Shown one piece after another: positions 11,982-17,979 of a stretch of 36,222 nt of DNA. Under the pieces are notes generated by a model. That model saw only the letters and a program-made list of their open reading frames with translations. It had not been told where the DNA came from and did not search any database. The first letter of the stretch is position 1. Every line of letters begins with the position of its first letter. This DNA comes from Nostoc sp. GT001 (lineage in GTDB: Bacteria > Cyanobacteriota > Cyanobacteriia > Cyanobacteriales > Nostocaceae). A program made the translations under genes and the position numbers. The stretch covers positions 4,995,476 to 5,031,697 of the forward strand of contig NZ_JAUDRJ010000003.1 of the NCBI RefSeq assembly GCF_030382115.1, given 5' to 3'.

Positions 11982-12326
11982 TTATGCTGGCTTATCCTGG
12001 ATCGGGGGAATCTTAATCACAAACTCAGTGCCTTGTCGTACCCTGAGCATCAGTAAAAAGATGCTGGTTCTCATTAGTAATATTTGTCGTGAAAACCAGT
12101 TCATCTATTTCCCAGAACGCATCAGCTTCTACTTGCAAAAAAAATCATAGTCTGACTTGCCAATTAATTCTTCTTGGCTATGACCAACAAAATCACAGTA
12201 GCGATCGTTGCCAACGCATTCATCAACTGTGATGCGGCTTTTTTGAGTAGCACAATTGATACGAAACCTTAAAGTACTTACGGTATCGTTAAATTCGTGG
12301 ATTAGACTAGAACCACAGGGTAACAA
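11982..12326 (-). pseudogene. Remnant of a PAS-domain sensor histidine kinase
   Basis: Reading the minus strand from 12326, a PAS-like piece is seen: GNDRYCDFVGHSQEELIGKS, then DYDFF. After a frame change it continues as EADAFWEIDELVFTTN, the usual end of such PAS domains. Then, in another frame, GTEFVIKIPPIQDKPA and a stop (11984-11982) match the very end of a histidine kinase ATPase domain. The whole kinase core is missing. This is a kinase gene reduced to its PAS and last residues by a large deletion and at least one indel. Confidence 0.65.
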
Positions 12327-12339
12327 TCAAAGGAAGATT

Positions 12340-12947
12340 ATGATGAGCGATCGCGACTATACCTTAATCATTGACAAAAGCGGCAGTATGTCCACACCCG
12401 ACCAAGTGGGTGGTAGAAGTAGATGGGAAATCGCTCAAGAGTCTACTCTGGCATTGGCTAGAAAGGCCGAACAGTTTGACCCCGATGGCATCACCGTTTA
12501 TGTGTTTTCTGGGAGATTTAAACGCTACGATGATGTGACTTCAGCCAAAGTCGGCACAGATATTTCTCGAAAATGACCCTGCTGGCACAACAAACTTAGC
12601 AGGTGTACTTCAGGATGCCCTCAATAACTACTTTCAACGCAAAGCAGCTAGGTAAAACCAAGCCAAACGGAGAGACAATTTTAGTCATCACCGATGGTGA
12701 ACCAGACGATCGCAAGGCTGTGTTTGAAGTCATCATTCATGCGACTCGTCAGATGGAACGTGATGAAGAATTAGCAATTTCGATCATTCAAGTAGGTTCA
12801 GATGCCCAAGCAACTAAATTCCTCAAGGCTTTGGATGACCAGTTGCAAAGTGTCGGCGCTAAATTTGATATTTGCGATACCGTCACTTTAGACGACTTAG
12901 AAGAAATGAGTCTTGTAGATGTATTGACGAACGCAATAACTGACTAA
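12340..12947 (+). pseudogene. vWA domain protein, frameshifted tandem copy
   Basis: This is a copy of the intact gene at 13105 (DYTLIIDKSGSM, QFDPDGIT, ITDGEPDDRKAV are shared). The first frame fails after SAKVGTDISRK because of an extra base near 12553. The middle part continues in the next frame (AQIFLENDPAGTTNLAGVLQ). A second extra base near 12652 (GCTAGGTAAA against GCTGGTCAA) moves the rest to the third frame. Two +1 changes do not restore the frame. The start ATG at 12340 has AGGAAG upstream and aligns with the paralogue. It encodes no full vWA protein unless the sequence has errors. Confidence 0.8.
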
Positions 12948-13104: not shown

Positions 13105-13710
13105 ATGCTAGAAAATCGTGATTATACCTTGATTATTGACAAAAGCGGTAGCATGGCAACCCAAGATCAAAAGGGTGGTAGAACTAGATGGGTTGCAGCC
13201 CAAGAATCTACTTTAGCTTTAGCTAGTAAATGTGAGCAATTTGACCCAGATGGTATCACTATCTATGTATTTTCTGGTAAATTTAAACGATACGAAAATG
13301 TCACATCCAACAAGGTATCACAAATTTTTCGAGAGAACGATCCCTCTGGTACAACTGACTTGGCAAGTGTGTTAAAACATGCAACTGATGATTACCTTCA
13401 ACGCAAAGCAGCTGGTCAAACCAAGCCAAATGGTGAAACAATTTTAGTGGTTACTGATGGTGAACCGGACGATCGCAAAGCAGTCATGAGGGTAATTATT
13501 GAAGCTTCTCGTCGCATCGAACGAGATGAAGAATTAGCTATTTCTTTTATTCAAGTTGGCACAGATCAACAAGCTACCCGCTTTCTCAAAGTCTTAGATG
13601 ATGAACTCCAAAGTGCTGGTGCTAAGTTTGATATCTGTGACACCATTACTATGGAAGATATGGAAGATTTGAGTCTATCGGAAGTGCTACTCAATGCTAT
13701 TAATGACTAG
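13105..13710 (+). CDS. von Willebrand factor A (vWA) domain protein
   Basis: This 201-residue protein is essentially one vWA domain. The MIDAS metal-binding motif DKSGS is at 11-15, the second element is in PSGTTDLAS and the third is TDGEPDD. No signal peptide or membrane segment is present, so it is cytoplasmic. Stand-alone vWA proteins of this kind act as metal-dependent protein-binding modules, often with AAA ATPases or tellurite-type stress proteins, but none of these is nearby. The gene is preceded by a broken tandem copy and followed after 27 bases by a coiled-coil gene, probably in one transcript. A good AGATTGGAGAATTGA ribosome region precedes the ATG. Confidence 0.88.
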   Translation: MLENRDYTLIIDKSGSMATQDQKGGRTRWVAAQESTLALASKCEQFDPDGITIYVFSGKFKRYENVTSNKVSQIFRENDPSGTTDLASVLKHATDDYLQRKAAGQTKPNGETILVVTDGEPDDRKAVMRVIIEASRRIERDEELAISFIQVGTDQQATRFLKVLDDELQSAGAKFDICDTITMEDMEDLSLSEVLLNAIND

Positions 13711-14915: not shown

Positions 14916-15104
14916 ATGGAGAAATTAACTAAACCAGTGCGATTTTGGCTTTGTGTAACTATCATAATTTGGGGTTTGATGGGCTGCGATCGCTTTATCA
15001 GTACTTCTGGAGAACCAGTTGAGCGAGTCAGTGATGGCGATACTTTAGTAGTCAAAGATACCAATGGCAAAAACTTTACCGTGCGCTTTGCTTGTGTAGA
15101 TGCG
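14916..15104 (+). CDS. Thermonuclease (SNase-like) lipoprotein, exon 1
   Basis: The first 63 codons of a staphylococcal-nuclease-like gene interrupted by a group II intron. Residues 10-24 form a lipoprotein signal peptide with lipobox LMGC (C24), so the product should be membrane-anchored outside the cytoplasmic membrane. VSDGDTLVVKD and VRFACVDA start the nuclease fold, with catalytic-type R57 and D62. Reading through the intron would stop at TAG 15120-15122. Joined to exon 2 the protein is 188 residues, a normal length for this family. Confidence 0.85.
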
Positions 15105-15711
15105 GTGCGATTCGTTGGCTAGAAACTAGAACCTGTAAGGGTTCGGAGGATTAGCCGCAAGGTTCCAGTCCCTCGTATCGACTGGAAAAGAACCTTGACA
15201 ACTGAATGACCATGAGGGTGAAAATCTCTCCCCTGTAGATGCCAGGTGAAAGCACTTCCCCTACGGTAGCGACTAGCCATCAATCCGTAAAGCGGGGATG
15301 AAAGCCCTTCCACACTCCTAGTCCAAGGTAGTGCGGGGCAAGCAAAGAGCCTATGAGTAAAGTTAAAAACTTGAACCCACGTTAAATTACCGTGACGCAA
15401 AACCAGCAAAATGGACTGACTAGCTGGGAGACCCAAAAGGGCAAGGATTAAGGGTTGGCGAAAGCATCTCGACCAACAGCATCTCCAAATAAACCCGGTA
15501 AAGAGTGGGACTCTAAAGGTTTGTAGTATGGTCATTCGGAACGAAGTAACCCCTCGTTAGCTCTCGGAGAGGTCGAATACTCCGAGTAGGTAGCTAGCCG
15601 GATGCTACGAGTGGGTGGGATTGGGAAAGAAGCGAATGCCTTGGGTAATGCCAAGGATATGCTGACATTCCCACGGTAATAAGGATGAAATAGTTTCTAG
15701 TAACAGTACAA

Positions 15712-17595
15712 ATGTCTAAAACGAGTGTAAAAACTACGGTGGAATGGAACCAGGTGGACTGGCGAAAGCTGGAACGTCGGGTTTACAAGCTGCAAAAGAG
15801 AATATTTCGAGCCTCTAGTCGTGGTGATATTAGAACAGTTCGCAGACTCCAGAAGACCTTGATGAGGTCATGGTCGGCAAAGATGCTGGCAGTACGTCGT
15901 GTAACTCAGGACAACCAAGGCAAAAAGACAGCCGGAGTAGACGGAATTAAATCCCTTACGCCCGTCCAAAGGCTGGTAATGGTGAACAAACTTGGGCTAA
16001 AAGGGAAAGCCAGACCTACACGAAGGGTTTGGATAGACAAACCAGGAACGGATGAAAAACGCCCTCTTGGTATTCCTACGATGTATGATAGAGCGCTCCA
16101 AGCGCTGGTCAAGCTAGCATTAGATCCAGAATGGGAAGCTCGATTTGAGCCAAACAGTTACGGATTCCGACCAGGACGCTCATGCCACGATGCTATCGAA
16201 GCAATATTCAAGGCAATTAGGCAAAAACCAAAATACGTGCTAGATGCCGATATTGCGAAATGTTTCGACCGCATCAACCACGAGGAACTACTCAGAAAAT
16301 TAAATACATTCCCTACCATCCGCCGACAAGTTCGTGCCTGGTTAAAAGCGGGAGTGATGAACGGTAAAGAGTTGTTCCCTACATCTGAGGGTACGCCGCA
16401 AGGTGGGGTCATTTCTCCACTATTGGCAAACATCGCCCTCCACGGGATGGAAGAGAGGATTAAGCAGGTCTTTCCAGAATTAAAAAAACACCAAAGAGAG
16501 ACCTGGTTTCATAAAAAAGGAGAATATTTCTCACCCCCAAACTTAATCCGATATGCCGATGACCTAGTGATTACACACGAGGACATAACCGTAGTCCAAA
16601 GATGTCAGCAAATAACTGCTGAATGGCTAAAAGGCATGGGCTTAGAACTGAAACCAAGTAAAACACGTACTGTCCATACACTAAAAAGGTATGAAGGGCA
16701 AGAACCGGGATTCAATTTTTTAGGATTCAACGTGAGGCAATACCAGGTAGGGAAATACAACACAGGTTGTACCAGCATGGGAGAACCACTTGGCTTCAAG
16801 ACAATCATCAAACCCAGCAAACAAAAGATAAAAGTACACTACAACCAAATAACCGAGGTAGTTAACCAGTACAAAACAGCAACACAGGCTGCACTGATAG
16901 CCCGATTGAATCCAATCATTAGCGGATGGGCTAATTATTACCGCACAGTCGCCAGTCAGGATGAATATTCCAAAACTGACAACAAAGTGTACTGGAAACT
17001 AAAAAGCTGGGCACAACGCCGCCACCCAAATAAATCGGGACATTGGATAACCAATAAATACTGGCAAACCATAGGCGGAGATAACTGGGTATTCGCAACC
17101 AGCCAAGAGGAAAAAAATCCCCTACGGTTACTAAAACATGCAGAAATTAAATCCAAAAAGCATGTCAAAGTTAAAGGCGAAGCTAGTCCATTTGACGGCA
17201 ACCTAGTTTACTGGAGTACAAGAATGGGAAACCACCCAGAGATGCCTAAACGGGAAGCAACCCTGCTGAAGCGTCAAAAGGGCAAATGTACCCACTGCGG
17301 ACTATATTTTACTGAATCATCGGTTATGGAAGTTGACCACGTTATTCCTAAGTCGAACGGCGGAAAGAATAATTACGACAATCTTCAACTCCTACACCGT
17401 CATTGCCACGATGAAAAAACTGCCACCGATGGTAGTTACGGTACCAAATCTAGCTGTAATAGCGCTAAACCTAAGCCCGTAAAAACGAGCGACAGAGGTA
17501 CTCATGACAAGAGCCTTATTATTGAGGAGCCGTGTGAGGTGAAAGTCTCAAGCACGGTTTTGGAGACGAGCGGTTCTCGTGAGGGAATCGCTTAG
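15712..17595 (+). CDS. ltrA: Group II intron reverse transcriptase/maturase with HNH endonuclease
   Basis: This 627-residue multifunctional protein helps the intron splice and copies it into new sites. Reverse transcriptase blocks are clear: GIPTMYDRALQALVKLAL, SYGFRPGRSCHDAI, EGTPQGGVISPLLANI, and the active site YADD at 281-284. A maturase (X) region follows around 395-415 (NPIISGWANYYR). The C-terminal HNH domain has C526 and C529, V541-D-H543 and HRHCHD at 562-567. All key residues are present, so it should be active. The frame does not stop after HNH but runs through RNA domains V and VI to a TAG at 17593. Confidence 0.93.
   Translation: MSKTSVKTTVEWNQVDWRKLERRVYKLQKRIFRASSRGDIRTVRRLQKTLMRSWSAKMLAVRRVTQDNQGKKTAGVDGIKSLTPVQRLVMVNKLGLKGKARPTRRVWIDKPGTDEKRPLGIPTMYDRALQALVKLALDPEWEARFEPNSYGFRPGRSCHDAIEAIFKAIRQKPKYVLDADIAKCFDRINHEELLRKLNTFPTIRRQVRAWLKAGVMNGKELFPTSEGTPQGGVISPLLANIALHGMEERIKQVFPELKKHQRETWFHKKGEYFSPPNLIRYADDLVITHEDITVVQRCQQITAEWLKGMGLELKPSKTRTVHTLKRYEGQEPGFNFLGFNVRQYQVGKYNTGCTSMGEPLGFKTIIKPSKQKIKVHYNQITEVVNQYKTATQAALIARLNPIISGWANYYRTVASQDEYSKTDNKVYWKLKSWAQRRHPNKSGHWITNKYWQTIGGDNWVFATSQEEKNPLRLLKHAEIKSKKHVKVKGEASPFDGNLVYWSTRMGNHPEMPKREATLLKRQKGKCTHCGLYFTESSVMEVDHVIPKSNGGKNNYDNLQLLHRHCHDEKTATDGSYGTKSSCNSAKPKPVKTSDRGTHDKSLIIEEPCEVKVSSTVLETSGSREGIA
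17527..17562 (+). ncRNA. Group II intron domain V
   Basis: GAGCCGTGTGAG pairs with CTCAAGCACGGTTT around a GTGAAAGT-type loop. This is the standard catalytic domain V hairpin, with the AGC catalytic triad at the start of its 5' strand. Domain VI follows to 17601. The maturase reading frame overlaps both. Confidence 0.88.
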
Positions 17596-17601
17596 TTTAA
17601 C

Positions 17602-17979
17602 CCAGAAATAGCTCATACCAACAAAGAAAAGCAAAGTAAACGCACTAGCGATCGCAATCAATTTACTTGGGGTGTAAAAGCCCAAGAACGGGTGCAACAA
17701 CTGGTACAACAAGGAGGCGATCGCGTGACTTTGAATATTACCGATAGCGATCGCTATGGGCGTAAAATTGCTGAAGTCCGTTTAAAAAATGGCACTTTTG
17801 TACAACAGGTATTGTTGCAAGAAGGTCTAGCAAAAGTGTATCGTCCCTATTTAAATAAGTGTCCTAGTAAAGACTTAGTTCAACAAGCCGAAGCCAAAGC
17901 GAAGGAACAACGGCTCGGCGTTTGGAGCGATACTAAATTTATAAATCCTTGGGAATATCGCAGCCTATATAAAAAGTAA
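17602..17979 (+). CDS. Thermonuclease (SNase-like) lipoprotein, exon 2
   Basis: The 3' exon supplies residues 64-188 of the spliced protein: PEIAHTNKEKQ at the start (E65 is the catalytic-type glutamate), then DRYGRK (R117), followed by FVQQVLLQEGLAKVY and the LGVW element that ends the nuclease fold. Together with R57 and D62 in exon 1, all expected SNase active-site residues exist only after splicing. On its own this exon has no proper start codon. The product would cut DNA or RNA with calcium outside the cytoplasm. Confidence 0.85.
   Translation, partial: PEIAHTNKEKQSKRTSDRNQFTWGVKAQERVQQLVQQGGDRVTLNITDSDRYGRKIAEVRLKNGTFVQQVLLQEGLAKVYRPYLNKCPSKDLVQQAEAKAKEQRLGVWSDTKFINPWEYRSLYKK

Follow-up and report, generated by a model that had tools for sequence, protein, structure and literature searches.

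Interruption of genes by cyanobacterial group II introns has already been described in a review; that review and a second paper (PMC6003770) state that housekeeping genes are seldom interrupted in bacteria at large. For Trichodesmium, splicing in vivo has been documented for 17 group II introns (PMC4649490). As in the case presented here, these cyanobacterial introns interrupt protein genes and restore the reading frame, but their splicing was shown experimentally and one of them is a twintron, whereas the Nostoc case is a simple intron whose splicing is predicted. Further counterparts are TeI4h and its kin, IIB1 introns of Thermosynechococcus elongatus (PMC2882425), the likeness lying in the alignment of the intron-encoded protein (IEP) to PDB entry 6me0 chain C. 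In the excerpted text TeI4h lies within a tRNA gene, has good EBS/IBS pairings and is thought to splice, and only a small number of T. elongatus introns are located inside genes (PMC2882425). In contrast, the host of the Nostoc intron is a protein gene whose active-site codons are parted, its IEP has an intact YADD motif where the excerpt gives YAGD for TeI4h, and its IEP frame runs through domain V. We found no account of this nuclease-gene insertion in openly licensed PMC text. The case is a well-formed example of a pattern already known for cyanobacterial introns, and opens no new principle.

The window, a stretch of 36,222 nucleotides from Nostoc sp. GT001, is part of a contig of 7.3 Mb; the whole genome amounts to 7.9 Mb in 6 contigs. 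Within the window, a gene of the staphylococcal nuclease (SNase) family is interrupted by a group II intron, with the following features.

14916-15104, + strand: 5′ exon of the SNase-family gene, codons 1-63, with LMGC, R57 and D62
15092-15097, + strand: IBS2 (TTGTGT), pairing with EBS2 at 6 of 6 positions, one of them G-U
15099-15104, + strand: IBS1 (GATGCG), pairing with EBS1 at 5 of 6 positions; base -1 forms a G.A mismatch
15105-17601, + strand: group II intron, 2,497 nt, GTGCG...TTTAAC
15120-15122, + strand: in-frame stop reached by the unspliced 5′ exon
15395-15400, + strand: EBS2 (ACGCAA) in domain I, from the IBS/EBS scan
15463-15468, + strand: EBS1 (AGCATC) in domain I, from the IBS/EBS scan
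15503, + strand: EBS3 (G), partner of the first 3′-exon base, from the scan
15712-17595, + strand: IEP, 627 aa, with RT (YADD), maturase/X and HNH, from Pfam and TIGR04416
17287-17424, + strand: HNH endonuclease domain of the IEP, aa 526-571 (PF01844, 52 bits)
17526-17561, + strand: domain V hairpin, from RF00029, RF04357 and the fold
17564-17598, + strand: domain VI hairpin with bulged branch-point A17594, from the fold
17602, + strand: IBS3 (C), from the scan
17602-17979, + strand: 3′ exon, codons 64-188 and stop, with E65, R117 and the SNase domain PF00565

The exons (63 codons, and 125 codons plus the stop) are in phase and join to a protein of 188 residues across VDA|PEIAHT. The intron cuts between A63 and P64, which puts D62 on the first exon and E65 on the second. 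In the Pfam scan, the 3′ exon scores 56.8 bits against PF00565, and the 5′ exon by itself gives no match. When the intact orthologue P0003 is aligned by HMMER with staphylococcal nuclease over residues 37-174, R57, D62, E65 and R117 fall opposite the R of TFRL, the D and E of VDTPE and the R of YGR, which we take to be the catalytic residues R35, D40, E43 and R87. The gene thus shares with the PF00565 family the domain, the four catalytic residues and the order of the motifs, and differs from staphylococcal nuclease in its N-terminal lipobox-like signal and in being interrupted. A first-pass annotation of the letters had placed the boundaries at GTGCG and TTTAAC with an in-frame VDA-PEIAHT join, which is correct to the base, and the P0003 alignment bears out its view that the SNase motif is split. 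Its further claim that an intact nuclease requires splicing also holds, as D62 and E65 are separated and the unspliced 5′ exon reads five intron codons before its stop. The annotation had also called the product a lipoprotein. This tentative term is based on a lipobox-like LMGC (Cys24, codon 14985-14987) that was read by eye; the 29 aligned relatives have a GC at the same place. Extra residues directly follow the lipobox cysteine in the intron-free orthologues L022, L029 and L033. Elsewhere in the window, two tandem similar coding stretches (12256-12947 and 13105-13710) contain DYTLIIDKSGSM, and the former is broken into two frames.

The 3′ exon was searched against 148 genomes, 126 of which gave some match at E 0.001 among the matches listed. 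Among these matches, an uninterrupted full-length nuclease gene is present in 50 of 52 genus-mates (86-98% identity, open frame of 188-199 codons); for the other two, no close copy was found in G002 with this search, and the copy in G019 is apparently broken. Intron-free homologues had been expected to join at VDA-PEIAHT, and all 29 intron-free genus-mates that were fetched are gapless at the junction when aligned with the spliced protein, with gaps or inserts in some of them near the N terminus. No insert at the junction was seen in 23 aligned sequences, 20 of them from other genera, and no interrupted copy appeared in the other genomes searched, among the matches listed. Across the 12 codons that span the insertion site, the locus L016 matches the window exactly. 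Compared with the 29 genus-mates, the window exons carry two private bases, both silent, and their dN/dS to the six nearest relatives is 0.08-0.19. Such exons would be expected both in a functional gene and after a recent insertion, and their state does not separate the two; with so few private changes, there may not yet have been time for decay to become visible.

The intron ends GTGCG...AAC conform to the 5′ GUGYG and 3′ AY of group II introns. A GTGCG start is found in 73 of 73 relatives, a count that is not independent evidence because the boundary script sought and snapped to such ends. Domains V and VI match RF00029 with 56.3 bits (cut-off 40) and fold with a z-score of -4.9. The bulged A17594 lies 8 nt from the intron 3′ end, and an A is at the equivalent place in 69 of 74 introns. 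The 5′ part, 15105-15705, folds with a z-score of -4.4, based on 20 shuffles only. The genome holds 11 RF00029 matches, one of them below the cut-off, and domain I of the nuclease-gene intron has a single match in its own genome.

The IEP contains the Pfam domains RVT_N, RVT_1, GIIM and HNH and scores 321 bits with TIGR04416 (cut-off 300), the reverse transcriptase, maturase and HNH complement of a mobile group II intron. The earlier impression that the RT, HNH and domain V are intact is thus upheld by the Pfam domains, TIGR04416, RF00029 and the fold. The closest solved structure is PDB 6me0 chain C (residues 7-576 aligned, 390 bits), which we take to be the TeI4h RNP. Based on this match and on the mostly cyanobacterial relatives, we suspect that the IEP belongs to the chloroplast-like (CL) class. 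Over 17524-17595 its frame crosses domain V and ends within domain VI at the stop codon TAG (17593-17595), in which the branch-point A17594 is the second base.

Among possible tertiary contacts we examined those between EBS and IBS, using a covariation scan of 47 related introns and the window that sought the column pairing best with an intron's own exon relative to the exons of other introns. The scan was run at n = 29 and n = 48, with the window counted in both and IBS2 taken at four shifts. EBS1 was located at 15463 (6 nt, z 9.9-10.1, runner-up column at most 3.5), EBS2 at 15395-15396 (z 9.4-16.7 at shifts 7 and 8) and EBS3 at 15503 (z 5.5 at n = 29 and 6.7 at n = 48, runners-up 3.1 and 3.4). 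The EBS3-IBS3 pairing is a mark of subclass IIB; it is formed with the 3′ exon here, and the assignment to that subclass rests on it. It is also present in 46 of 54 relatives, the introns out of the 73 that entered the pair table (IEP identity at least 57%). The window forms 12 of 13 exon pairs, and of 72,416 window sites the only one to reach this number is the actual insertion site. Mismatched combinations of intron and exon form 5.0 pairs on average, and one in 2,970 reaches 12. In the 54 relatives the mean is 9.6, with 13 introns at 12 or more and 41 below the window. The pair that the window lacks, at IBS1 position -1, is present in 47 of the 54, and the mismatch may lower the efficiency of splicing. 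It was probably there at the time of insertion, since the intron-free genus-mates mostly carry the same G (GCG in 25 of 29).

We consider it very likely that an apparently intact, mobile group IIB intron has retrohomed into the VDAPE motif and excises itself with the help of its maturase, which would restore the nuclease. In this proposed sequence of events, an apparently intact element would have entered the VDAPE of a chromosomal SNase-family gene, and its RNA would hold the 5′ exon by EBS1-IBS1 and EBS2-IBS2 and the 3′ exon by EBS3-IBS3. Maturase-aided self-excision as a lariat, branched at A17594, would then rejoin codon 63 to codon 64 and give a normal nuclease. Splicing in the cell and its efficiency, the mobility of the intron and the part of the maturase are inferred from these sequence features. 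Because the active site itself is split, splicing would be all-or-nothing for enzyme activity. The locus is thereby a clean natural system in which activity would depend absolutely on splicing and close relatives provide the exact empty site, and the efficiency of splicing in the cell could be read out as nuclease activity.

It is unlikely, by comparison, that a recent insertion splices poorly or not at all and has knocked the nuclease out, leaving a 68-residue lipopeptide that ends at the 15120-15122 stop and lacks E65 and R117. The mismatch at IBS1 -1 would agree with such a loss, as would the solitary occurrence of the interrupted copy among the matches listed. The gene also looks dispensable in the genus, since of 52 genus-mates one (G002) yielded no close copy and another (G019) has an apparently broken one, among the matches listed, and a cell could therefore survive without splicing. 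However, the 12 of 13 exon pairs exceed those of 41 of 54 relatives, the tested parts of both ribozyme and protein are intact, and neither exon is damaged.

That splicing is regulated, with the intron as a switch for a surface nuclease that is operated, for example, by the maturase or by ribosomes reading the IEP frame across domains V and VI, is very improbable. The idea draws on the all-or-nothing dependence of activity on splicing and on the IEP frame, which covers domain V and stops on the branch-point A. We give equally little credence to its specific form, in which ribosome passage and splicing would be mutually exclusive and translation of the maturase would gate nuclease production. 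Against a switch, the insertion is confined to one genome among the matches listed, and an IEP frame that crosses domain V is shared by 18 of the family's 74 introns; among the 25 whose IEP identity is at least 66% there are 5, the window included. The overlap may be a matter of chance in the frame. The suggestion in the first-pass annotation that the nuclease is conditionally made thus has as its only support the logic that activity needs splicing. An artefact of assembly or joining is scarcely credible, given the position inside a 7.3-Mb contig, the exact empty site in relatives and the coherent EBS/IBS pairing.

To place the case among insertions of related introns, the IEP was used as a query, and the best 80 of 469 places were kept together with stretches from further genomes. 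From 111 IEP places (at least 45% identity and 250 bits) we obtained 76 introns with both ends, 73 of them unique; a MAG locus labelled Tatlockia (L122) was excluded. An open frame (at least 40 codons on each side) is crossed in sense by 27 of the 73 and in antisense by 7, with 4 counted in both, leaving 23 sense-only against 3 antisense-only insertions. Control cuts 300-700 bases away (2,640 cuts, for introns with long enough flanks) crossed frames in sense in 42% and in antisense in 21%. The excess of sense insertions speaks for the splicing reading, although the control cuts lean towards sense as well. Avoidance of genes is therefore not clear in sense, and antisense insertions are about halved. 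A Pfam scan covered one half of each of the 27 sense-split genes, and both halves for L074. Five have no family, three are TnpB-like, one has RRXRR and HNH, one is a MmeI-like methylase and 17 belong to other families, which are atypical of mobile or restriction genes (L188 lies below the cut-off, and L091 and L127 are domains of unknown function). These 17 include PdxJ, an MgsA-type AAA protein, Lrp/AsnC, a zinc-binding dehydrogenase, HD, acetyl-CoA synthetase, DnaN, RpiA, carotenoid synthesis, CYTH and peptidase M3. Interruption of host genes had been called uncommon; this is in line with the review and with PMC6003770 for bacteria at large, but is unsupported for the related introns, since 27 of 73 cross open frames in sense and 17 of these lie in genes not of the mobile type. 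Related introns thus often sit in sense inside protein genes, like organellar introns. In the split peptidase M3 gene (L174), the database copies P0155 and P0156 (692 aa) are 99-100% identical to the 5′ exon, which suggests that this insertion is very recent.

Other introns from the family of the nuclease-gene intron, with IEP identities of 59-70%, interrupt tmk, Richelia dnaN and pdxJ. The tmk introns (L116, L118 and L150; two in Nostoc, one in Calothrix) and that in Richelia dnaN (L177) have IEPs 59-68% identical and the same anatomy as the nuclease-gene intron, but differ in target gene and EBS sequences, and the tmk site is occupied in three genomes where the nuclease site was seen occupied once. 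The three thymidylate kinase insertions are additional to the 27, their first exons having only 18-28 open codons, and PF02223 starts at profile position 10 directly after the junction. A search at E 1e-20 gave one tmk match each in 36 of 39 genomes other than the three with tmk introns. As tmk is an essential gene, the hosts of these introns probably must splice them, the copy search having covered genomes other than these three.

By eye, several sites in relatives are striking, namely GCGK|T in the P-loop of Tmk, DGH|R in DnaN, TRE|K in RpiA and DVDG|T in HAD. Sites were scored by the conservation percentile of six or seven junction residues. The window and eight genes gave a mean percentile of 0.69 (P 0.024), and 0.67 without the window (P 0.051). 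With three genes added the mean was 0.64 (P 0.05, n = 12), and without the window and Tmk 0.59 (P 0.17, n = 10). Tmk was picked for its looks, outside the selection rule, and the HAD and RpiA sites stand outside the measured set. Low percentiles were found for Lrp (0.17), Acs (0.11) and CYTH (0.00). The scores cover 10 of the 27 gene insertions, excluding TnpB-like, repetitive and Pfam-less genes and also the Pfam-named L091, L127, L180, L182, L153 and L186. A preference for catalytic motifs or conserved residues was rejected as a claim on these values (P 0.05 at n = 12, 0.17 at n = 10), and the active-site position of the nuclease insertion is most likely incidental.

Two further observations concern nesting. 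The mapped 5′ ends of L075 and L094 fall within an RT-like frame (RRVTQDNQ), which suggests either that these introns are nested within IEP genes or that their 5′ ends are misplaced. The genome with the nuclease-gene intron also holds a 4.6-kb element (L097:3867-8485, L098, L099 and L101), of which contig C3 carries three copies (99.5% identical) and C1 a further one at 94%. It resembles a twintron, with about 2.4 kb inserted into the IEP of a 2.2-kb intron that occurs uninterrupted in L096 and L100.
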